19,989 nt of DNA from an uncultured Clostridia bacterium (lineage in GTDB: Bacteria; Bacillota; Clostridia; Christensenellales; UBA1242), in assembly GCA_947631485.1 (NCBI GenBank), contig CANRLJ010000001.1, positions 1-19,989 of the forward strand, written 5' to 3'. Positions 1 through 19,989 of this stretch are shown one piece after another; within the stretch, counting starts at the first letter, position 1; each line of letters starts with the position of its first letter. The position numbers were made by a program, and so were the translations under genes. Under the pieces are notes generated by a model. The model saw only the letters and a program-made list of their open reading frames with translations, was not told the DNA's origin and ran no database searches.

Positions 1-40
1 TTTTTCTTCGGGTTATATCGAAGATATAATCGCGTTTGGG

Positions 41-68
41 AGTGGTTCAAATCCACTCCTCGCAACCA
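41..68 (+). other. tRNA 3'-end fragment, unit 1 (T-arm, 3' acceptor, CCA)
   Basis: The T-stem AGTGG/CCACT closes the canonical 7-nt T-loop TTCAAAT. It is followed by exactly seven acceptor bases (CCTCGCA), discriminator A, and CCA, which is perfect tRNA geometry. I could not fold an anticodon or D arm immediately upstream, and no TGCGAGG or CGCGAGG 5' acceptor strand is present, so this is a fragment and not a whole tRNA gene. The 3' end (CCNCGCA-ACCA) and T-loop resemble initiator tRNA-fMet most closely, with A72 as in the initiator C1-A72 mismatch. The parent identity is inference. Confidence 0.8.
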
Positions 69-78
69 AACTAAGAAG

Positions 79-116
79 CCCAAGTTAAACATGGTGTTTG
101 ATTTGGGTTTTTTCTT
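79..116 (+). terminator. Intrinsic terminator, unit 1
   Basis: A 13-bp stem (79-91 with 95-107, including two G-U pairs) with loop TGG is followed by TTTTTTCTT. It begins about 10 nt after the tRNA CCA, as expected at the end of a tRNA gene. Confidence 0.9.
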
Positions 117-148
117 CGGGTTATATCGAAGATATAATCGCGTTTGGG

Positions 149-176
149 AGTGGTTCAAATCCACTCCTCGCAACCA
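149..176 (+). other. tRNA 3'-end fragment, unit 2
   Basis: This copy is identical to the unit 1 fragment: T-stem AGTGG/CCACT, loop TTCAAAT, acceptor CCTCGCA, A, CCA. No 5' tRNA half precedes it. Confidence 0.8.
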
Positions 177-186
177 AACTAAGAAG

Positions 187-224
187 CCCAAGTTAAACAT
201 GGTGTTTGATTTGGGTTTTTTCTT
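187..224 (+). terminator. Intrinsic terminator, unit 2
   Basis: Exact copy of the unit 1 terminator: 13-bp stem, TGG loop, T6 tract. Confidence 0.9.
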
Positions 225-256
225 CGGGTTATATCGAAGATATAATCGCGTTTGGG

Positions 257-284
257 AGTGGTTCAAATCCACTCCTCGCAACCA
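257..284 (+). other. tRNA 3'-end fragment, unit 3
   Basis: This copy is identical to units 1 and 2 within the tRNA-like part; only the terminator stem downstream differs. Confidence 0.8.
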
Positions 285-294
285 AACTAAGAAA

Positions 295-332
295 CCTAAG
301 TTAAACATGGTGTTTGATTTGGGTTTTTTCTT
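295..332 (+). terminator. Intrinsic terminator, unit 3
   Basis: Same hairpin as units 1 and 2, but the left arm reads CCTAA instead of CCCAA. One C-G pair becomes T-G wobble, so the stem is kept. A T-tract follows. Confidence 0.88.
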
Positions 333-365
333 CGGGTTATATCGAAGATATACTCTCGTCTTGGG

Positions 366-393
366 AGTGGTTCAAATCCACTCCTCGCAACTA
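366..393 (+). other. tRNA 3'-end fragment, unit 4 (CCA changed to CTA)
   Basis: The T-arm and acceptor strand are the same as in units 1-3, but the terminal CCA reads CTA. This copy would therefore lack an encoded CCA end. The rest of the T-arm is intact. Confidence 0.78.
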
Positions 394-403
394 AACTGAG
401 AAA

Positions 404-441
404 CCTAAGTTAAACATGGTGTTTGATTTAGGTTTTTTCTT
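404..441 (+). terminator. Intrinsic terminator, unit 4
   Basis: The left arm CCTAA pairs with TTAGG on the right arm. This is the fully compensated form of the CCCAA/TTGGG pairing in units 1 and 2. The loop TGG and T6 tract are unchanged. Confidence 0.88.
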
Positions 442-453
442 CGGGTTATATCG

Positions 454-484
454 CACCACATGTTATTTGTGGTGATTTTTTCTT
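454..484 (+). terminator. Intrinsic terminator closing the array
   Basis: CACCACA (454-460) pairs with TGTGGTG (468-474) around a 7-nt loop, followed by ATTTTTTCTT. The stem sequence is unrelated to the repeat terminators. It directly follows the partial fifth repeat copy, so whatever is transcribed from the left is stopped before the next gene. Confidence 0.85.
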
Positions 485-517
485 GCCTACCAAATTTGAA
501 AATAAAAACCCAAACTG

Positions 518-546
518 TTGAAATTTAAAAATATTTATGATAAAAT
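518..546 (+). promoter_or_regulatory. Sigma-A-type promoter for the hydrolase-like gene
   Basis: The -35 TTGAAA (518-523), a 17-bp spacer and the -10 TAAAAT (541-546) each match consensus at five of six positions. The predicted start is near 553, which leaves a very short leader before the AGGGAGG ribosome binding site at 556-562. Confidence 0.7.
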
Positions 547-568
547 AATAATATTAGGGAGGATTTTG

Positions 569-1645
569 ATGGATTTTCAATATGAAGGCTTTGGCCTTGG
601 TCAAAGAGTAAAAAACGCAACAAATAATTGGATTCCGCTGAATCCAGATGTATATCTGATAAACAAACCAACAGTGCTTATGATTGGCGGAAGTGGAACG
701 GAAGGTGTTAGAAGCGCAAATGGAAATGCAAAGATAATTCAAAGTTTGCTTGACAGCACAGGCACAAACGCCGAACTTCTTTCAGTTTATTACAATGGCA
801 AAACACCAACCCCTGGCATGTTTGAATACTACACCAGAAGATTTACAAGAGATTTGTTCACTCCGCTTTTGTGCATGGGCCGCCAAAAGTTGGACACCGA
901 AACCGCTTGCAAAAACATGAGAAATTTGACAATTTTTGCTCACAGTTTGGGCGGAAAGACGGTGGAGAACATCCTTGATGAAATGTCGGTCATAATGAAG
1001 AGAGCAAACTACACAGACGAAGAAGTAAACAAAGTGCTGAAACAAATATTTGTCGTCTCCTACGGCGTGACGCTTGTTTCACCAAAAATATATTATTTAA
1101 GCGTCATTTCTCCAGCGGACGAACAGTTTGCAAACTCTGGCGAAACTTGTTGGAAGGTGTTGATTAAAAAGATAATGCGCTATAAAATGATGACGCCGGC
1201 AGAAAGACAAAATCTTCCACCAGAGGCCGTTGTCAATATGCCAGAAAAAGACATGGCGGCATTGTCTAAAATCAGTTTCCTTTTGGATTCTCCAAAACTG
1301 ATAAGAGAGTTTTATAATACAAACGAAAAATGTTATGTCATGCAAGAGGGCGACAACGAACTGCAACTTGTCACCTCGCCCCTGCGTGCCAGCCACAAAG
1401 ACCATGCCATAACCCACTTTGCGCGCACAAGCGATGGTCAGCAAAATGTGTATGCCACAAAGACGGGAGATTGCGTCAGCAAGTGTATGGCAGCGGCACT
1501 GAAATATTCAGTTGACAACTCTGCCCAAAACGCTGAAACAAAGGAACTTGTTCCTTTTGATATCGCCCAACTTAGGACAATTTTGGAACAGACGGCTCTG
1601 CCTCTGAACAGCCAGCACCTAACCACCCCACGCGAACTTCAATAG
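569..1645 (+). CDS. Orphan alpha/beta-hydrolase-like protein (358 aa)
   Basis: I do not recognise this as a named family. The start at 569 is chosen because AGGGAGG (556-562) lies 6 nt upstream; an earlier in-frame ATG at 518 overlaps the promoter. What can be seen is an A-H-S-L-G-G motif at residues 124-129, preceded by the hydrophobic strand NLTIF. This resembles the lipase/esterase nucleophile elbow G-H-S-L-G-G with Ala at the first Gly, making Ser126 a candidate nucleophile. A Gly-rich TVLMIGGSGTEG loop near residues 35-46 could be an oxyanion-hole strand-turn, and His279 or His283 could be the catalytic His. There is no signal peptide or membrane segment, so it is probably cytoplasmic. 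It is monocistronic, with its own promoter and terminator, between the tRNA-end array and gyrB. The substrate is unknown, and the hydrolase assignment rests mainly on one motif. Confidence 0.85.
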   Translation: MDFQYEGFGLGQRVKNATNNWIPLNPDVYLINKPTVLMIGGSGTEGVRSANGNAKIIQSLLDSTGTNAELLSVYYNGKTPTPGMFEYYTRRFTRDLFTPLLCMGRQKLDTETACKNMRNLTIFAHSLGGKTVENILDEMSVIMKRANYTDEEVNKVLKQIFVVSYGVTLVSPKIYYLSVISPADEQFANSGETCWKVLIKKIMRYKMMTPAERQNLPPEAVVNMPEKDMAALSKISFLLDSPKLIREFYNTNEKCYVMQEGDNELQLVTSPLRASHKDHAITHFARTSDGQQNVYATKTGDCVSKCMAAALKYSVDNSAQNAETKELVPFDIAQLRTILEQTALPLNSQHLTTPRELQ

Positions 1646-1668
1646 GAGAAATTTAACACACAAAAATC

Positions 1669-1700
1669 AAGACAAGAAACGCGATTTCTTGTCTTTTTTA
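1669..1700 (+). terminator. Intrinsic terminator after the hydrolase-like gene
   Basis: AAGACAAGAAA (1669-1679) pairs perfectly with TTTCTTGTCTT (1685-1695) over an 11-bp stem with loop CGCGA, followed by TTTT. It lies 23 nt after the TAG stop at 1643-1645. Confidence 0.9.
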
Positions 1701-1723
1701 TTTTAAAATTTTTATCAATTCGC

Positions 1724-1752
1724 TTGTGCTTTTTCCCATATTATTATATAAT
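1724..1752 (+). promoter_or_regulatory. Probable promoter for gyrB-gyrA-helD
   Basis: A consensus -10 TATAAT at 1747-1752 lies 17 bp downstream of a weak -35, TTGTGC (1724-1729). A second TATAAT at 1765-1770 lacks a recognisable -35. The whole stretch 1740-1775 is almost pure A/T. The gyrB ribosome binding site AAAGGA (1773-1778) is 12 nt from the ATG, longer than ideal. Gyrase promoters are often supercoiling-sensitive, but nothing here proves that. Confidence 0.5.
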
Positions 1753-1769
1753 ATAGTATATTTATATAA

Positions 1770-3794
<2,025 letters not shown>

Positions 3795-3894
3795 TTGAGG
3801 ACAAAGTTGACGCAGCCAAAAAGTTTAAATTTGAAAGAGGCAGAGAAAGAATAAAACAGAAGAACATGAATTTAGAAGTTGAAAGGAAGAAGAA

Positions 3895-6450
3895 ATGAGC
3901 AAAAAAGACAACGAATTAAACAGACAAAATTTGAGAGAACTTTTGGACAAAGAAAAAGTTCAGCCAATTGAGGTTGTTGGAGAACTGAAAAGGTCCTTTA
4001 TCGCCTATGCAATGGCGGTAAATGTAAGTCGTGCCATACCTGATGTTCGCGATGGACTGAAACCTGTTCACAGAAGAATCCTCTATTCTATGGGCGAACT
4101 TAACAATTTCTATGACAAGCCTCACAAGAAGAGCGCAAGAATTGTCGGCGAAGTAATGGGAAAATATCACCCACACGGCGACAGTTCCATTTATGACGCA
4201 TTGGTCAGACTTGCACAGGACTTTTCAATCCGCTATCCTCTTGTTGACGGTCACGGAAACTTTGGCTCTGTGGATGGCGACCCTGCTGCCGCAATGCGTT
4301 ACACTGAGGCAAGGCTTTCAAAGATTGCAGGATTGATGTTGCAAGACATCGAAAAAGAAACTGTTGATTTGTATCCAAACTTTGACGACACCCTAATGCA
4401 GCCAACAGTGCTTCCTTCCAGATTTCCAAACCTTTTGGTTAATGGCGCAGACGGAATTGCTGTCGGCATGGCAACAAATATTCCTCCTCACAACCTTACT
4501 GAGGTCATAAACGGCGTTCAAGCCCTGATTGACAATCCAGAAATCGACATTGATGATTTGATTAAAATCATCCCTGCCCCAGACTATCCTACAGGCGGCA
4601 TCATCATGGGAAGAACGGCAGTTAAACATGCCTACAAGACTGGTCGCGGCGGAATCCTTGTCAGAGGCAGAGCAGAAATTGAAGAAACCTCAACTGGCAG
4701 ACAGAGGATCCTCATCACCGAACTTCCTTATGGCGTGAATAAGGCTCGTTTTGTCACACAAATTGCCGATTTGGTGAAAAACAAAAAGATTGACGGCATA
4801 AGCGACCTGCGTGATGAAAGTGACCGTGACGGTCTGCGCGTTGTTGTTGACATCAAAAAAGAGGCAAACGCACAAGTTGTGTTAAATTCTCTCTACAAAC
4901 AAACAATGCTCCAGCAGAGCAGCGGCATAATCATGCTGGCACTTGTCAATGGCGAGCCAAGAGTGCTCAACCTCAAAGAGATGCTTTATTATTATTTGGA
5001 GCATCAAAAAGAAGTCACCATCAGAAAGACCAGATTTGACCTCCGAAAAGCCGAAGAACGAGAGCACATAGTAAAAGGTTTGGTTATTGCTCTTGCAAGC
5101 ATTGACGAAGTCATCAAGGTGATAAAGAGTTCTAAGGACAGGCAAGAAGCAACAGTAAATTTGACTTCAAATTTCGAATTGGATGAAATTCAAGCAAACG
5201 CCATACTTGAAATGAAACTTTCAAAACTGACAAGCCTTGAAGTTGAGAAACTGAACGAAGAATTAAAAGAACTCGACGCACAAATTGCAGACTTTAAGGA
5301 CATTTTGGAAAAGCCAGCAAGAGTGCTTAAGATTGTGAGAGATGACCTGGAAAAAGTTAAACAAGATTTTGGCGACGAAAGAAAAACTGAAATAAGCATG
5401 GATTTGGGCGGCATCGACATTGAAGATTTGATTGCCGAAGAGGATGTCATCATCTCCATGACACATATGGGCTATATCAAGCGCATGGGCACAGACGAAT
5501 ACAAATCTCAGCACCGAGGTGGAGTTGGCATCACCGCCCACAAGACCAAGGACGAGGATTTTGTGGAAAAGATGTTTGTGACCTCAACGCATGACACCCT
5601 CCTGTTCTTCACAAACCTTGGAAAAGTGTATAGCGCGAAGGCATATGAAATTCCTGAGGCACAAAGACAGGCAAAGGGCAGAGCAATAATAAATCTGTTG
5701 CAACTCAGCCTTGGCGAAAAGGTGAACACAATCATCCCTGTCAGAGGTGAAATGAAAGGAAATCTCATCATGGCGACCAAGGGCGGTTTGATTAAAAAGA
5801 CACCTCTCACCGAGTATGAAAACATAAGAAAGGTCGGAAAAATTGCCATCAAACTCAATGAGGGCGACGAACTGATCGGCGTTGACATAACAACCGGCAG
5901 AGACGACATCTTGATTGGAACTCATGAGGGCAAATGTATTCGCTTCAACGAAACAGATGTTCGTCTTGTTGGCAGAGACAGCCAAGGCGTGCGCAGCATA
6001 AAACTTGCAAGTGCTGACTTTGTTGTGGACATGGCGATTGTTCATGAAAATTCACACATTTTGACAATCTCCGAAACCGGCTATGGCAAACTTACTCCTG
6101 TTGACGAATTCAGATTGCAGCAACGCGGCGGCATGGGAATCAAGGCCGGAGCATTTACAGAAAAAACAGGCAAACTTGTTGCAATGAAACAGATTGAGGG
6201 AGACCTCGACCTGCTTGTCATAACCGACAGCGGCGTGATAATTCGCACCCCTGTTTCTGGCATAAGCAAATTTTCAAGAGTCAGCCAAGGCGTCAGAATA
6301 ATGAAACTTAAAAACGACTCCAAAATCACAAGTGTGGCTTTAACCACAAAAGAGGAAGAATCAAACGCTGACGAAACAGCAGACGAAACAACAGAAGACC
6401 TGACAGAAGAAACAATTCAAACAACGCAGGAAGAAAACCCACAAGAATAA
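3895..6450 (+). CDS. gyrA: DNA gyrase subunit A
   Basis: Breakage-reunion subunit of gyrase. The ribosome binding site AAAGG (3882-3886) is 8 nt before the ATG. The N-terminal winged-helix/tower domain starts with [24 protein letters not shown] (residues 38-61). The catalytic Tyr is Y136 in [11 protein letters not shown]. The quinolone-resistance region reads [10 protein letters not shown] (92-101); S97 and D101 match E. coli S83 and D87, so no classic resistance substitution is present. Residues near 430-500 are the long coiled coil. The C-terminal DNA-wrapping beta-pinwheel begins after about residue 500. Its GyrA-box position reads QHRGGVG (539-545), with Val where Lys or Arg is usual, and a second box-like QQRGGMG lies at 742-748. 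The protein ends in an acidic tail of about 35 residues rich in Glu, Thr and Asp. Length is 851 aa, typical for GyrA. It is followed 33 nt later by the helD-like gene, probably in the same transcript. Confidence 0.97.
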
Positions 6451-11930: not shown

Positions 11931-11960
11931 AAAAAAGAGCAAATTTTGCTCTTTTTTTTA
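11931..11960. terminator. Bidirectional terminator between metG and the giant gene
   Basis: AAAAAAGAGCAA (11931-11942) pairs with TTGCTCTTTTTT (11946-11957) around a 3-nt loop. A and T runs on both sides let it act on either strand. It abuts the TAA stop of the - strand gene (11958-11960), so that gene's terminator starts at its stop codon. Confidence 0.88.
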
Positions 11961-14900
11961 TTCTCCTGTCTTTTCCCAATAAGCATACAGTGTAATCACA
12001 TAGTCTTTTGCGTCTTCCGCTTTCACTGTGTAACTTGTAAAGCCTTTTGTTGATGGTCGATGTCCCCAAGGTTGTAATCCCCAAGAAGTTGAGCTATAAA
12101 TACCAGCGTAACTCACATCGCCTTCCAATGCAAACTTATAACCTTTACATTCGGCAACAAAGCCTGACAAAGTAATCTCATCTCCTAAAAATCGTTTAAT
12201 TGGCGCAAGGCTCTTTGTAACAACATTATGTGTGTCGTTATCTACCCAGCCATGCCAAAAATCACTCTGGGCATACCATCGCAAATCAAAATTGATGGTG
12301 TAATAATGTTTTTGCGTCGTGTTCCACTTGCTGTAAACCGTGAAGTCATAATTTCTCATGGCAAAATCTGATATTTGAGTCGCATAAACATAGTTGTCAC
12401 TAGTCCACCAGCCCTCAAATGTGTGATATTGCCTATACTGACCATCCGCACTGTCATCCTCATAGTAAGCCAAATCATCCACATGATGCTGTTCGCCCTG
12501 CAACAAATAGATTGTATTTTCGGTGTTTTTCAAGGCATCCTTTGTAGTGAACTTATACCAGTTTCTTATGTGCACTTCAAGGGTTGCATTGTCAAGTTGT
12601 TCAAACTCGTCCTCAGTGATGGTGAAATCGTCATCTGAAACAAGTTGGCTTGCATACAATTCGTCAAAGTAGAACTGTGTGTTTCTTCCATTTGTGTCAT
12701 TTGTCACAACTTTTGTGCCGTTTGTCAAGTCTATCTTTGTGTCAACAACGCCCTCAAGGGTGTCATCCACAACCTGCCCGTTGTCTTTAAGCACAATTTT
12801 GAAGATGTCTTTTTCATCATACTTTTCCCACTTTGCAAACAGTGTTAAGTCTGCGCTTGGCATGAAGCCGCTTTCAAACTTTGTGCCGTCTTCAAAGGTT
12901 TCTGTTGTCCACCAGCCCGCAAATTTGTAATACTCCATCTTGTCGCCGACGCGTTTGATGATGATTTCGTCCTCGGCTGGAGTTGGAATTTCAAATGATG
13001 ATTTTTCAATCACACGCTTGTCAGAATATTTTTGCTGTCCGCTGATTTGGTCATTGTTCACAACAAATTTCAACGAATAATACTTTTCGTGTGTGTCACT
13101 CCACTTTGCATAAAGTGTTAGGTCTGCACCAACAGGAATTGTGTCTGCAAAATATTGTGTGCCCTCTTCAAAGTTTGGCGTCGCCCACCAACCTTCAAAC
13201 TTGCGTGTCCACCTTTCAGTTTGAGGGTCATCCCTCACAATCTGACCATAGTCTGGCAAGTTGAATTGTTTGCCCTCAAGGTCATAGGCATCTGTCTGCG
13301 ACTGTTGAATTTCGTCATCGTTGGTGACAAAGTGAACTCCACGATAATATTCAACAACTGTGTGCCACTTTGCATACAAAACGATGTCTTCTTCAGGCAT
13401 AACAGTTTCTTTAAACTCGGTGCCCTCTTCAAAGTTTGGCGTTGTCCACCAACCCTCAAATGTCTTGGTGGTCTTTGTCTTTGTGACATCTGGGTCGTCA
13501 ATGATGATTGGGTCGGTGTATGTTGGAAGCGTGATTTGTGTGCCAACCCACTGATATAGGTCTTTGAGTTGTTTCCCGCCATTTTCAACAAAGGTGATGA
13601 ACGAACTCTTTTCATAATCCAATCTGTACTTGTCATTTGTAAAGAACGTTGCCGTTGATTTGCCGTTGTTTGGCGTATAGACGTAGATGGTTTCGCCTTT
13701 CTCACCTTTCACAGAGCCGAGATTCAAAGCAAGTTTCACAAGGTCAGACCCGTCATCCTTCTTGATGCTTGTTGCAACATCAAGTGAGTCGATGTATGTC
13801 ACATCATGACCTCTGCGCTTATAGACATTGTTGCCTGTGAAATCGGTTGTGCCTATTGTCAAAACTATATCGCCAAATGACTTGACTGAAGTGAGGTTTA
13901 CGCCATTAAGTGTCATGCAATAATTGTATGCATTTTTTGACTGCGTTCTCGTGTAACTGATGATTGCCTCTTCGATTGTAGGCTCTGGATGTATGCTTGC
14001 AATATACTCGGCAAGAGCATTTTTTACTCCATCAGTAAAGCCCATAACTTGTGCAAGTATGGTCATAATATTGTCGCCGATGTCTTTTGCGTCATAATCC
14101 CACCCGCTGTCGCCATAGAGATAACCTTTCTTTCCATCATAGTTTGCAGAGGATTTCTTGTCACAATTATATGACGTTTGCGTGATGTAAAGCCTGTTTT
14201 TCTTGAATTCCACCTGACTTATACGCCTGTCAAACCCATTGCAATATTCTGTGTAGGTGTCGCCAAAGAGCCCTTTGTTGTAGGTCACATCAAACACTGA
14301 TGGCACATCCACTTCGGCATAAACATATGGGTCCCCATCTCCGTCTTCTTCAATCCTCAAATCAATTCCAAGAGCCAATGTAACATCTATATTTTTCCCA
14401 AATATCTCGCCAAGGTGAAGATCCACCACAGGCTTATCTTGCGTGAACTCCATATGCAAGTTCAGTCCGCGAGAACTGATTGTGTTTACAATAGTGTCGG
14501 CAAATGATGGCAAGGTGCTGAAATCAATATGATCTGCCGGTTTGTTGTTTTCCAAATAGTTATAACTTGCTTCAAATGGTTTGAATTGAACTTTAAGATT
14601 TATAAGTTCGTCATCAACAATATTGATGCAGTCGAGTTTGTATTCCTTTTCACCTGTCTTTAACAGATTTATGCTTATGTCTGTCAGCGACTTGTCGCCC
14701 TGCTTTGCATCAAAGTTTGTAAGGTCAAGCCCGGCAACCAAAGACATCGTTCCGTCTGTATCGGCCTTATTCAGTCTCAATGATTTAAGCATATGCAGGC
14801 CGGAAGTTATGTCATTTAAGAGGTTGCTCACCTTGGTCATATCGCCGCTGGCATCCACTTTCTCCAAGCCAAGAAGTTTTTGAATAAATGTAAAGTCTGT

Positions 14901-17900
14901 GGTGTTTTTGCCAAGAATATTCAACTCCTCTTCAACCTCTTCTCCAAGGTTGAGGTTGAGCATTGACACAACCATTGCAATCAAATCGCTCATGCTTTCG
15001 TTTTTGATAAACGCCCTAAACTTCTTGCTGCCGATGTTCCTTCCATGTGTGTAGGAAACATACAAACCATCGCCCTGGCTGTCATACAGGATATCCACCA
15101 TATGTCTTACAGGAGTTGACCAAGCACCGGTTGCATCCTTTGAGGAAATTGTAAAGTCGAGATATGCCTGAACCTTCAACGACCTTCCTTTGAACAACTT
15201 GATGCCTGAAGGGTTGCTGACGCCTTCAAGTTTTGCAACCTCAACGGTTATGTCTGCGCCAATGTTTGTTATCTCTGTGTCTCCAAGATTTATTGACTCT
15301 TTTTCAGATTTTTCTATGACAATCTTATAGTTGAAGGATTTGTAATAGTCATAAACGGCCTTAACTGCTTGCATAACTTCTTCGATGTCGTGGAACTCTT
15401 CAAGTGGAACAAGTTTGCCCTCAAAACCTTGCAGGCTTACAATGTTTTTATGGTTTGTCGCGCCATCAACAAGTTCGCCACCAAACTTTTTGTCAATCTG
15501 CTCGTCAGTGCCAAGAACAATGTTTGTCAAATATGCTGCAAAGTTGAGTTGTTCTGTTTGTGCAATCTCCAAGTTGTTTCCATGTTCATCCTTCAAATGC
15601 CACTGCAATGGATCACCGTTTGCATCTGTTGGATATTTTGTCTCGCCATCAAATGGCTTTGTGTTTCCGTCAGTTATATTTGCGCCCAAGACAACCTCTT
15701 GTGGAACAATTCCTTGTGTGAGGTCAAACAAAACTTGAGCAAAGATGTTTTCAAACCAACTTGCCTCTGCATACACGAGTTTTCCATCAACATCAATTTG
15801 AATTCCGTTTCTCAGCATGCTTTCGTCTTTTGCAATTTCCGTCCACCTTGCAAAGATTTTTGTCAGCATAGGAAGAACAACCCTAAATGCCTCTTTTGCC
15901 GTTTCGGCTTCCACAGCGGCTTCCTTCTTTTCATCTTTGTTAAAGGAAATTCCCAAATCTTGTTGGATGAAGTCCATGATGCGTGTGATGCTTTCTTCAG
16001 AAAGTTCGGTCTTAATCTGAAGCCCATCCACATCAACATAAATCATGTGTTTAATGTTTCCATCAATCACTTGGTCAAGCAAATATACATATGTTTCAAG
16101 CCCAAGCGAAGTTGTGTATAATTGAACAACAGGTCTCAAAGAGCCAAAGGATTTTTGATATGCCACATCTTTGACAAGCATAACCGTGATTTTCCCATAG
16201 AAGTCAGAGAACATATATCTAAATGCAAGATCGGATGTGAACACATAGATGTCCTCAGCAACCTTAGCTTCTTCCCCAATCTTTTCAACAAGTCTTGCAG
16301 GTTCAAGCAAAGCACTTATATAATCCTTGTGCTGTGTGTAGTTTTCTGCAACAAATGGTGGCATGCTTTCGCCTTCCAACAGCCCAACGCTGCCAGACAG
16401 ATAATTTCCATACACTGAAAGTGCGATGCTGCCGTCTGCCGACAATTTTCCGTCAACAAACTTCAATGTGCCGCCAAGCAATGGGTCTTGCGTTTCAACG
16501 GCTTTGCCTTTGGTGTCAAGAGTAAATGACAATTCTGCAAGACTGCCAGACAGACCAAGTTTTATTGCATCAAAGAGGTCGGCAACATCAAGTTTAAACA
16601 AGTCTATGACATTTTGAAGCACGCCAAAATTGATGTCCACGCCAAAGGTGTCTTTCACAGCCCCCTCAACTTGCTCAGCAATCTCTTGTTTTTCCTCCTC
16701 AGATGCCGTCTCTTTTGGAAGTTCAAACTTCACTTTGATGTTTGAAAGTGTGATATACAAGATGTTTTGTTGCAATGTTTCGTCAAAGTGCATCCTGATG
16801 TAAACAGGCTCGCCAAGGAAGTTTCTTATTGTCACAAGCATTTCATCGTAGGTCTTCATTATTGGCTTGCCAGATTTGTCAAACAACTTGTTTCCTTGTT
16901 CATCGGTCTGTTGCACTCCTCTTGCAAAGACAATTTCGCCGTCAAGAGCAAGGCCGTCTTTTGATTCTGTCTTGTTGTAAATCACGTCAAACTCAGCGCC
17001 AAAAACTCCGGTGTTGACATAGTCCAAAATATTCTTCACAACAGATATCAAATCGGTCAACTTATTTCCGGCTTCCGCTGGGTTTTCAACAACCACATTG
17101 TCCTCTTTCAAAGTTGCAGCAACAGAAAGGTTTTCCATCTGTTTGCTGAACATCAATTCATTTTCTTCCGTGATATAAACAAGTGATAACAAATTGAAGG
17201 TCTTTGTGTTGATGGAATTTAAGATGTCTATATACTCTTTGTGATTTTGAGAAATCAAAGCCTTGATTTGTTCAATAAGTGCCTTGTCAATCTCTCCCAC
17301 AGCAACAAATTCGTCAATTTGCACTGACAATTTGTCGTTCAGCACAATAACTTTCACATTGGTGTCAAAAACTGTGCCGTAAAGTTTGAGATACAACTTG
17401 TCGACAAGGTCAACCTCAACATTAAATGTCAAATCCTTGCCAAAAACAGAGACAACAACCTCGCCTTTGTGTGAAGAAATAAGATTGTAGAACCCTTCAA
17501 GGCTTTCAAAAGCAGTGGCAAATTCTTTCACCTCAGCGTGAAGTGTCAGTGCCTTCTTTTCTTTTTCTTTTACAGACACATCCAAGCCAGAAACATTGCT
17601 GCCGTCAAGCAGAACCTCTCCGCTTCCCTCAAAGTTCATGAAATTGATGCCAAATTTAAGGTCATCTATGCTGCCATTTACATCAACAACAATCCTCTCC
17701 AAAATTGCGGAAAGTTTTGTCTGAGACAAATCCTCACCAAACATCGCAACAAGAAATTCAGACAACGCCTCGGTTTCTTCTTCATCATCCCCAAGTTTTG
17801 CAATGATTGCTTTGATGACGCTCATCAAACTTGTTTGGTCTTTTTCTCCAACAACTTCGCTGATGTCAACTTTAATTTTGTTTAATTCTTCTTTATTTTC

Positions 17901-19989
17901 TTCCTTATATTGTATATAAAGCATATCGCCATTATAGAGCAAATCCACAACATCCTTGCCAATGTGCAGTCCGTTTATTTCAAATTGTTTGTTTAACAAA
18001 TCGACAAATGCATTTCCTGCAAGGTCAATGTTGTTGTATCTCAAAGCAAATGAAAACTCAAACACTTTGCCTTCAACATAAGTCTTAACAGCCTCAACCT
18101 TTTCAAGAACATTGTTTAGGTTTTCGGTCTGAACAGGAAGGACAATCTTTTCGTCCACAACAGAAATTGACAAATCAATGTCCACATCTGTGTCATACAG
18201 CACAGAGATGTCTGCCACCTGTCTGCCGCCCTCTTCTTGCACCTGAACATCCTCAAACATTGAGGTTGTTATGCTGACATCAAACTTCACAAGTTCTGCC
18301 AAGATTTTTTTGATTTGAACTATCACATCTTTGACAACTTCTTCTTTGGCTGTTGGAAGAAGGGCCTTGATTTTGGTTGTGTATTCATCCAACTCTGCAA
18401 GCGAGCCAGTCACAACAACCTTGTGTTTTTCAGATTCCGTTCCGATATTTTCATCCTGACCGATGACAAGATATACATTGCCTTCGCCCTCGGCGTTTTC
18501 AGTAGGATATTTGTAGTTTAAATACAACTCAACATCCTCTTCAAATGCCTTGGCACAAATCTTTGCAAGCACGCCTTCGTCACTCAGATTTACAACATAA
18601 TTTCCGGCAATCTCTTCGCCTTTAAGATTTAAACCAATTTCGCCACCAAAAGATTTTGCCGTCAAAATTTCGTCAACCAATTCTTCAAGTTTCAAAAGTG
18701 CATCAACATCCTTGTATGAAGAGCCGTCAAATTCAAACCCCTCACTTGCAATGTCAAAGTTGACATCCAAATCTGCGTTGTTCAAATTCACAGAAATGTC
18801 TTTCAGGATGTATGTGTCTTTTTCAACAATTTGGGTCTGTGGCTCTTGCATCTCGTCCGAACTTTCAACTTGCTCTTCCACATAAATTTTCTGTGTTGCT
18901 CTTTCAAACACCACACTTTGGCCATCGTCCCAAAGAATTTTGTAGGTGTCTCCGTCAAATTCCGAAGCAGATGGGAACACTTGCAAAACATTTTCTGCAC
19001 CCATCAATTCCTTTAATTTCTGCAAAATTGTGGTTTTGGAGTCTTCCTTGTTGATTTTTTCTTCAAATGCGGTCAAAAATTTGTTCAATGCCGCTTCTGT
19101 GTCAGAGTCAAAATGCTTTTCCAAAAGCCTATCCAAAGCCTCAACCCACTTTCCGTCTGTGCCAACCTTAAACTTGACATCGTCAGCAGAAAGATAGATG
19201 GAGTCGTCTGCATACACAATCTTAATTGCCAAGCCGTCAATCGTTGTTTCAACAAGCACTCTTGGACTGTCTTTCTTATCAACAACAAAGCTTGCCTTGT
19301 ATGTTTTGTCATCTTTCAATTTAAATGTGGCGTTTCCTGTGATGTAATCATTTTGTGCAAACAGATTTTCGCCGTAAGCCACAAATTGGTTTATTGGTGT
19401 AAGGTCAACAAACTCCTGCACCTGTGGCTCTTCGACAACAATCTTGCTGCTGTTCATCAAAACGCTTGGGGCGTTCAGTTTGATGGCAAAGTCACCATAG
19501 TTTATCTGTTTGATTTCCACAGAGGTTATGTTGTAGTTTTGGTCTGTCTGAATAATTCCTCTGAGGATTCTGTTTCCTGGCGCAATATCAAATTCATAGC
19601 CACCATTTTTCAGTTTTTTAAGGTTTTTGCCAAGTTCTGACAGATTAAGTTCGTCAATTCTAAAGCCCAAAAAGTCAAACAGTTTGTCTGTCAACCCGTC
19701 AATGTCAAAAGGCAAGTTGTTTTTGATTACATCCAAAACAAATGACAGGTCGATGTTAACATTGGCGTCAACAGATGCCTTTGTATCAATTTTGTATGTT
19801 TTGTCGTCAATCCCAACATAAAGTGTGTTTCCAAGATTGTTCACCCAAATGTGTGAAAGCACATCTGACTTGTCTATTGTCAAAGTTCCAGAAATTGGGT
19901 CGGTGTTGACATTTCTATAAAAATTCAAATCAACATCAATGCCACTTTGACCGTCATAAACGACATAGCCCCCAACCGCAAGGTTGAGG
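11958..19989 (-). CDS. Giant modular beta-rich protein with C-terminal InlB-B-like repeats (partial)
   Basis: At least 2676 residues are visible. The frame stays open to the right edge of the window, so the start, any signal peptide and the promoter are outside; a TTG at 19926-19928 is internal and not the start. The first ~2100 visible residues are repetitive, acidic and low in cysteine. Short amphipathic strands of the type 'LYI-x-L-x-x-hKVKh' alternate with helices such as 'DLLxxLxxxLG', about every 200-300 residues. No catalytic motif stands out. The last ~540 residues contain about five copies of a beta-grasp-like repeat recognised by 'FEGWW-T-P-NFEEGT...DLTLYAKW', as in InlB B-repeats and the Listeria-Bacteroides repeat family of surface proteins. 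The protein ends VITLYAYWEKTGE with no LPXTG motif, transmembrane helix or charged tail. It is convergent with metG. It is probably an exported surface protein of a gut-type Bacillota, with function unknown. Confidence 0.93.
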   Translation of the reverse strand, partial: LNLAVGGYVVYDGQSGIDVDLNFYRNVNTDPISGTLTIDKSDVLSHIWVNNLGNTLYVGIDDKTYKIDTKASVDANVNIDLSFVLDVIKNNLPFDIDGLTDKLFDFLGFRIDELNLSELGKNLKKLKNGGYEFDIAPGNRILRGIIQTDQNYNITSVEIKQINYGDFAIKLNAPSVLMNSSKIVVEEPQVQEFVDLTPINQFVAYGENLFAQNDYITGNATFKLKDDKTYKASFVVDKKDSPRVLVETTIDGLAIKIVYADDSIYLSADDVKFKVGTDGKWVEALDRLLEKHFDSDTEAALNKFLTAFEEKINKEDSKTTILQKLKELMGAENVLQVFPSASEFDGDTYKILWDDGQSVVFERATQKIYVEEQVESSDEMQEPQTQIVEKDTYILKDISVNLNNADLDVNFDIASEGFEFDGSSYKDVDALLKLEELVDEILTAKSFGGEIGLNLKGEEIAGNYVVNLSDEGVLAKICAKAFEEDVELYLNYKYPTENAEGEGNVYLVIGQDENIGTESEKHKVVVTGSLAELDEYTTKIKALLPTAKEEVVKDVIVQIKKILAELVKFDVSITTSMFEDVQVQEEGGRQVADISVLYDTDVDIDLSISVVDEKIVLPVQTENLNNVLEKVEAVKTYVEGKVFEFSFALRYNNIDLAGNAFVDLLNKQFEINGLHIGKDVVDLLYNGDMLYIQYKEENKEELNKIKVDISEVVGEKDQTSLMSVIKAIIAKLGDDEEETEALSEFLVAMFGEDLSQTKLSAILERIVVDVNGSIDDLKFGINFMNFEGSGEVLLDGSNVSGLDVSVKEKEKKALTLHAEVKEFATAFESLEGFYNLISSHKGEVVVSVFGKDLTFNVEVDLVDKLYLKLYGTVFDTNVKVIVLNDKLSVQIDEFVAVGEIDKALIEQIKALISQNHKEYIDILNSINTKTFNLLSLVYITEENELMFSKQMENLSVAATLKEDNVVVENPAEAGNKLTDLISVVKNILDYVNTGVFGAEFDVIYNKTESKDGLALDGEIVFARGVQQTDEQGNKLFDKSGKPIMKTYDEMLVTIRNFLGEPVYIRMHFDETLQQNILYITLSNIKVKFELPKETASEEEKQEIAEQVEGAVKDTFGVDINFGVLQNVIDLFKLDVADLFDAIKLGLSGSLAELSFTLDTKGKAVETQDPLLGGTLKFVDGKLSADGSIALSVYGNYLSGSVGLLEGESMPPFVAENYTQHKDYISALLEPARLVEKIGEEAKVAEDIYVFTSDLAFRYMFSDFYGKITVMLVKDVAYQKSFGSLRPVVQLYTTSLGLETYVYLLDQVIDGNIKHMIYVDVDGLQIKTELSEESITRIMDFIQQDLGISFNKDEKKEAAVEAETAKEAFRVVLPMLTKIFARWTEIAKDESMLRNGIQIDVDGKLVYAEASWFENIFAQVLFDLTQGIVPQEVVLGANITDGNTKPFDGETKYPTDANGDPLQWHLKDEHGNNLEIAQTEQLNFAAYLTNIVLGTDEQIDKKFGGELVDGATNHKNIVSLQGFEGKLVPLEEFHDIEEVMQAVKAVYDYYKSFNYKIVIEKSEKESINLGDTEITNIGADITVEVAKLEGVSNPSGIKLFKGRSLKVQAYLDFTISSKDATGAWSTPVRHMVDILYDSQGDGLYVSYTHGRNIGSKKFRAFIKNESMSDLIAMVVSMLNLNLGEEVEEELNILGKNTTDFTFIQKLLGLEKVDASGDMTKVSNLLNDITSGLHMLKSLRLNKADTDGTMSLVAGLDLTNFDAKQGDKSLTDISINLLKTGEKEYKLDCINIVDDELINLKVQFKPFEASYNYLENNKPADHIDFSTLPSFADTIVNTISSRGLNLHMEFTQDKPVVDLHLGEIFGKNIDVTLALGIDLRIEEDGDGDPYVYAEVDVPSVFDVTYNKGLFGDTYTEYCNGFDRRISQVEFKKNRLYITQTSYNCDKKSSANYDGKKGYLYGDSGWDYDAKDIGDNIMTILAQVMGFTDGVKNALAEYIASIHPEPTIEEAIISYTRTQSKNAYNYCMTLNGVNLTSVKSFGDIVLTIGTTDFTGNNVYKRRGHDVTYIDSLDVATSIKKDDGSDLVKLALNLGSVKGEKGETIYVYTPNNGKSTATFFTNDKYRLDYEKSSFITFVENGGKQLKDLYQWVGTQITLPTYTDPIIIDDPDVTKTKTTKTFEGWWTTPNFEEGTEFKETVMPEEDIVLYAKWHTVVEYYRGVHFVTNDDEIQQSQTDAYDLEGKQFNLPDYGQIVRDDPQTERWTRKFEGWWATPNFEEGTQYFADTIPVGADLTLYAKWSDTHEKYYSLKFVVNNDQISGQQKYSDKRVIEKSSFEIPTPAEDEIIIKRVGDKMEYYKFAGWWTTETFEDGTKFESGFMPSADLTLFAKWEKYDEKDIFKIVLKDNGQVVDDTLEGVVDTKIDLTNGTKVVTNDTNGRNTQFYFDELYASQLVSDDDFTITEDEFEQLDNATLEVHIRNWYKFTTKDALKNTENTIYLLQGEQHHVDDLAYYEDDSADGQYRQYHTFEGWWTSDNYVYATQISDFAMRNYDFTVYSKWNTTQKHYYTINFDLRWYAQSDFWHGWVDNDTHNVVTKSLAPIKRFLGDEITLSGFVAECKGYKFALEGDVSYAGIYSSTSWGLQPWGHRPSTKGFTSYTVKAEDAKDYVITLYAYWEKTGE
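11961..13620 (-). repeat. Protein-level InlB-B-like repeats in the giant gene
   Basis: Successive copies end at the Trp codon of (Y/F)AKW or a variant. These Trp codons lie at 13365-13367, 13101-13103, 12828-12830 and 12324-12326, and the last, degenerate copy ends in LYAYW near the C-terminus. Copies 1-3 are spaced about 265-275 bp apart and share GWW(T/A)T-x-x-FE-x-GT. Copy 4 has a longer N-terminal part with no GWW of its own before a copy reading TFEGWWTSDNY. DNA identity between copies is modest, so these are old duplications. Confidence 0.85.

Follow-up and report, generated by a model that had tools for sequence, protein, structure and literature searches.

The window, the 19,989-nucleotide stretch that was analysed, is contig C1 of the draft genome G000 (780 kb in 118 contigs, 76.6% complete). 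A single tandem array occupies positions 1-453, which TRF resolved into 4.2 copies of a 108-bp period with 97% matches, confirming the tandem array of tRNA 3' ends and terminators described in an initial annotation of this DNA. Since base 1 is the contig end, the array is cut. The features of the array and of the region behind it are as follows.

4..111, + strand: unit 1, the array start being cut off by the contig end (TRF and unit comparison)
10..31, + strand: linker hairpin GGGTTATATC-GAA-GATATAATC of unit 1, repeated at 118-139 and 226-247 and, diverged, at 334-353 (sequence and fold)
41..68, + strand: fMet T-arm through CCA of unit 1, repeated at 149-176 and 257-284 and, diverged, at 366-393 (sequence)
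78..113, + strand: terminator-like hairpin and T run of unit 1, repeated at 186-221, 294-329 and about 402-438 (sequence and fold; absent from the terminator scan)
112..219, + strand: unit 2, same sequence as unit 1 (TRF and unit comparison)
220..327, + strand: unit 3, 106/108 identical to unit 2 (TRF and unit comparison)
328..436, + strand: unit 4, 109 bp, most diverged, CTA for CCA at its end (sequence and TRF)
439..453, + strand: final partial linker at the array end (sequence and TRF)
454..480, + strand: terminator-like hairpin closing the array (terminator scan, 454-474)
518..1645, + strand: open reading frame behind the array, with no hit in Pfam; locus L100 has a relative, placed between fMet and gyrB
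1791..3794, + strand: gyrB by sequence; relatives lie behind fMet in related genomes

Each unit comprises a T-arm, the 3' acceptor strand CCTCGCA, A73, CCA and a terminator-like hairpin, and a 28-nt tail, AGTGGTTCAAATCCACTCCTCGCAACCA, starts at positions 41, 149 and 257. On reading, the 5' half of the tRNA is missing from every unit, as had been noted. A linker hairpin, which the initial annotation had not described, is also present: the palindrome GGGTTATATC-GAA-GATATA precedes the T-arm in every unit. ARAGORN found no tRNA genes in the window, and no complete cloverleaf is present. An Rfam search of window positions 1-1800 returned 10 matches, all below the gathering score, and seven relatives gave tRNA only at E 0.01. 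Folded as RNA, a single unit is predicted to form three hairpins (z -5.9 against 200 shuffles), including the 14-bp terminator stem. The terminator scan listed the hairpin at 454-474 and none of the array's own, probably because in the latter some of the T run is paired within the long stems.

The draft state of the genome, in 118 contigs, and the position of the array at a contig end would both suit an assembly artefact. This explanation is hardly credible, given that like arrays lie inside long contigs (e.g., L110 with 245 kb and L078 with 274 kb) and that unit 4 differs in sequence. In G000, the pattern GTTCAAATCCACTC occurs in this array only; the 77-nt fMet query likewise matched only the array, the assembly yielding no intact copy of that gene. 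Most likely, the intact gene stands just left of base 1, because gyrB relatives lie behind fMet in related genomes, as does a relative of the first open reading frame in L100. A gyrB relative was identified in 25 of 120 scanned loci, most of which extend only ~2 kb beyond the tRNA; judged by its position, this relative is behind fMet in 24 and in front of it in one (L106). Elsewhere in the window, a single open frame of 2656 aa on the minus strand (11958-19928) contains, by eye, repeated InlB-like stretches.

Copies behind the initiator tRNA gene of related genomes

The intact fMet gene of a relative (G114, locus L040) ends in the same 28 nt as the array tail, and the tRNA is therefore the initiator tRNA (5' CGCGAGG, C1xA72). 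The initial annotation had predicted a CGCGAGG or TGCGAGG 5' acceptor, the former of which agrees with the initiator tRNA-fMet of relatives, and an intact tRNA left of base 1, where the contig ends; in relatives, an intact fMet gene does stand directly upstream of such units. The fMet query gave some match in 105 of the 112 genomes of the genus, and neighbourhoods were fetched from most of these. A search of related genomes, in which the final 13 nt of each gene served as the probe (at most 2 mismatches, 900 bp downstream), revealed 53 copies of the 3' end directly behind intact fMet genes in 38 of 93 loci; by the same test, 55 of the 93 loci had no unit. Across 20 trials, shuffled probes scored 0-3 loci, and a single locus scored on the opposite strand; chance was rejected on these controls. 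A 28-nt probe with at most 7 mismatches detected copies in 31/99 loci, although some of the 99 extend only a short way downstream.

The arrangement of an integration scar, with an intact tRNA on one side and a direct 3' fragment on the other, was found in the relatives at these 38 of 93 loci, the window's own intact gene falling beyond the contig end. The copies start mostly at tRNA position 33, 37, 46-47 or 52-53, near the anticodon-loop and T-loop crossover subsites named in the parts of the Islander description drawn on here (PMC4383910). The T-loop is often altered in the units of relatives. These observations also bear on the proposal that read-through from fMet yields short CCA-ended RNAs, tRNA-like or acting as decoys, that are kept by selection. 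The strong fold (z -5.9) and the terminator of each unit fit such a role, but a consensus scan detected no promoter-like match before the array units, 55/93 loci lack a unit and the T-loop is often changed, so that a functional RNA is very unlikely.

The linkers provided further information about how the units may have formed. An inverted copy of an arm of the host's own tRNA, accepted where at most 10 of 200 shuffles scored as well, was present in the linkers of 34/53 units, as compared with 6/55 loci without a unit, and by eye some of these six are decayed units. The inverted stretch covers mostly tRNA positions 36-48, 48-64 or 24-36 and tracks the local allele, e.g., CCTCCGGGTTAT in L093. 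Together with the confinement of copies to ~400 bp from the fMet gene in 20 long loci, this is what would be expected if a stalled polymerase folded back on the tRNA hairpins, reverse-copied a stretch, jumped back and recopied the 3' end and terminator, with slippage expanding the product and no mobile element involved. Such copying accounts for the inverted own-allele arms better than remnants of recombination do and is a serious competitor. Nevertheless, we consider it rather unlikely as the origin of the arrays, because adjacent units often have unrelated terminators and because some units hold a structured element, M, that is common to different tRNAs and families and is no copy of local sequence.

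The 38 nt after successive CCA ends agreed poorly in L038, L039, L056 and L106 (0.32-0.55) and strongly in L004 and L118 (0.95-1.0), there being no baseline for these identities; we read the differing terminators as possible new arrivals and the matching ones as possible tandem duplication. The linker stem is conserved, with a loop ranging from 3 to ~75 nt. A regex census of linkers gave 58 matches from 38 sources, from which no rate was drawn because they include one chance match (L092rc) and the mis-bounded L011, L083, L063 and L123. A search of the genus with the long linker of L047 gave matches in 53/112 genomes at E 0.01; the strong ones fell at fMet arrays or at the starts of contigs, the others being weak and A-rich. 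Additionally, fMet copies in L180, L106 and L079 carry a second, different insert of ~40-60 nt in the T-loop, between the T-stem halves (lengths in L079 and L106 by eye).

Element M at fMet and other tRNA genes

M is a structured element of ~45 nt, recognised by a conserved stretch around GCGAACGCCACG in units of L038, L039, L088, L106 and L108. Searches of the genus with GCGAACGCCACGNAGCG (1 mismatch) identified 7 sites in 6/112 genomes, five beside fMet and two beside tRNA-Thr(CGT); G000 itself had no M match. A shorter pattern gave 56 sites in 32 of 297 genomes of the order, with 13 for the reversed control, and 30 loci were fetched from these sites. The pattern used across the phylum, which found M in 0/398 genomes (G000 included), was stricter, and the two rates are therefore not directly comparable. 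In related families, M was located in or beside copies of Leu, Arg, Ala, Gly and Thr tRNAs. Amongst 25 instances bearing an upstream CCGAGC-type motif, 11 had an intact tRNA within ~300 nt (Leu, Ala, Gly, Arg, Thr, Met); the addition of 8 instances picked for adjoining fMet or Thr brought this to 19/33.

The same design as in the window array is found at another gene in L236, where tandem tRNA-Leu copies without the 5' acceptor strand carry, by eye, M in the D-loop, a second insert in the T-loop and a terminator per unit. In L227, three 97-bp units lie upstream of tRNA-Arg(ACG), and thus 5' ends can be stacked too. For Met-type tRNAs in other genera of the order, 17/51 were flagged by loose tests, many of the hits being neighbouring real tRNAs; by eye, unit-like copies are present in L167, L175, L179, L180 and L186, and in L180 the anticodon and T stems are kept with inserts in both loops. 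The tRNA-tail pattern beside several tRNA genes of relatives probably records repeated recombination. Two genomes of the genus (L207, L208) show this design too, with an inverted anticodon arm, M and a direct 3' half beside tRNA-Thr(CGT).

Thirty M-core matches were kept and 9 skipped, the right ends of L038 and L039 being overlong owing to the end motif. The main hairpin is fully paired in 21/23 distinct sequences, even though these differ, with a mean stem of 5.0 as compared with 2.9 for swapped arms, and by eye M occurs in both orientations relative to the tRNA. Along with the linker stem that is kept across loops of 3 to about 75 nt, these features would be consistent with hairpins serving as recombination sites for some single-strand-DNA enzyme, in the manner of integron attC sites or CTX phage, with M as the mobile core. 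Integron attC sites are imperfect hairpins with variable tips, a likeness to the window hairpins. The units here differ in that, on reading, they hold no cassette genes between them, and the order of the hairpin core, GTT..AAC, is opposite to the one usual in attC. Folded-DNA sites of this kind are improbable, given that no enzyme was identified, that no such element was seen moving, and that swapped arms also paired fully in 131/506 cases, mostly short ones.

M resembles REP sequences, Rickettsia palindromic elements and MITEs, as far as these were compared, in its small size, its hairpin, its scattered distribution and its occurrence within gene copies; it differs in lying mostly in or beside tRNA copies and in that neither a mobilising enzyme nor a target duplication was seen. 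By eye, the tips of some linkers, GGAGCGAAAGCGGAATATAACC in L067 among them, are similar to the M tail GGAGCGNAGCGGAGTATAACC, and CGAAGATATAATC in the window has the look of a shortened version. A tentative reading, which we think more apt to be wrong than right, is that M is a new selfish DNA element restricted to the order and homing into tRNA-gene loops in either orientation. Each event would leave an interrupted tRNA piece and a terminator beside a repaired gene so that stacks grow, and the window hairpins would be shrunken M insertions.

Several other identities of M and of the linkers were considered and rejected. Removal of the insert restored a complete tRNA in just 2/33 instances, both Leu(TAA), which does not fit a tRNA intron. 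Amongst viral contigs, M had two matches, on reading chance occurrences in GC-rich coding-like DNA; amongst phages, it matched three records of one Synechococcus phage over 59% of the query (E 6e-3); and the plasmid collection gave no match. Linker patterns, searched in viral contigs as possible phage sites, gave 0 matches or 5 unrelated ones without tRNAs, and a viral scan using the L025 integrase gave 9 pattern matches, none of which was confirmed.

Integrated elements at fMet and the proposed origin of the stacks

Large elements also occupy the fMet gene. In L025-L029, 10.8-15.8 kb separate the intact gene from a 45-bp copy of its positions 33-77, and a tyrosine integrase lies between gene and fragment; four of these elements carry filamentous-phage genes. 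The short units have no gene between copies. L025 encodes a filamentous-phage-type Rep and a Zot-domain protein in addition to its tyrosine integrase, and each of the three has a close relative in L026 and in L027; L028 has an integrase and a protein just below the Zot cut-off (19.1 vs 20.3 bits), and L029 has an integrase and two further tested proteins without a match. In L028 (936-2015 and 2800-3639), a Viral_Rep/RNA_helicase (CRESS-type) replication protein stands alongside the sub-cut-off Zot protein, beside fMet. The closest known systems include integrated filamentous phages (inoviruses; PMC6813254), represented at fMet in this genus by L025-L028; by eye, the ends of these elements show no linker hairpin like that of the window. 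Relatives of the three query integrases were not found beside arrays, except for arrays behind a prophage (L026, L028).

Other arrangements were observed at these loci. By eye, fMet in L130 is followed by a gene resembling a large serine recombinase (3075-4871 in tRNA orientation; genome G004), and the DNA arm after CCA at L130 (L075) is common to L115 and, behind a short unit, to L112, in three genomes. Small zeta-toxin-like P-loop genes lie directly behind fMet or its units in L065, L071, L073, L074 and L130, others being Fic-like, also by eye. The sole PF00589 match in the window's assembly is a 373-aa integrase-like open reading frame on contig C8 (L265), away from the array. Altogether, the integrase elements in fMet and the recurring arms indicate a busy integration site where displaced 3' ends form.

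It is well established that integration leaves tRNA fragments behind (PMC9897764). The short arrays agree with the displaced 3' fragments treated in the consulted parts of PMC4383910 and PMC9897764 in having an intact tRNA, a direct 3' fragment of the same gene and starts near the loops, and true islands occupy the same fMet gene. They differ in that the units are about 75-240 bp apart and gene-free, with an inverted arm and hairpin linker and a terminator each. The initial annotation had suggested nested att-site scars or amplification of a tRNA 3' region. The former is borne out insofar as fMet is an integration site with tyrosine integrase elements, and it leaves the inverted own arm, the recurring hairpin and M unexplained. 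Because of the inverted own arm (34/53), which plain att scars do not require, and of M in some units, the short units are more than plain scars; against a scar origin there are also the 55 of 93 loci without a unit and the finding that neither M nor the linker occurs beyond chance in viral or plasmid collections. The near-identical tandem units point to amplification.

The displacement of 3' ends and the tandem duplication rest on the data. In the account that we favour, in which our confidence and our doubt are about equal, the stacked fMet 3' ends are what recombination at the fMet loops left behind, later extended in tandem from the tRNA side. For the founding unit, a small element would recombine at an fMet loop via a putative enzyme and supply the gene with a new 3' end and terminator, the old ones being pushed downstream. 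The bulk of the element would then be lost, leaving the hairpin of inverted tRNA arm and, in some genomes, M, and slippage or unequal crossing-over would multiply the 108-bp unit. That new units are added next to the tRNA is suggested by the unit order, in which the gene-side units 1 and 2 share one sequence, unit 3 departs from it at 2/108 positions and unit 4, ending in CTA in place of CCA, is the farthest and most diverged; this polarity comes from one array.

We recognised no earlier description in the open-licence literature of gene-free stacks with inverted tRNA arms and an insert common to several isoacceptors. The parts of PMC4383910 drawn on here state that Islander discards intervals of <2 kb or without an integrase, and the short arrays fall below this 2-kb floor and would hence be discarded. 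Among these uncultured Clostridia, the initiator tRNA gene stands out as a frequent target of recombination. If M moves, it would offer a simple system in which to study the way DNA locates a tRNA loop, inserts there and persists. Lastly, contig ends fall within or near fMet or M arrays in L037, L068, L082, L084, L217, L236, L237 and L240; such repeats thus break assemblies, and tRNA-gene arrays may account for breaks at tRNA genes in several draft genomes of the group.
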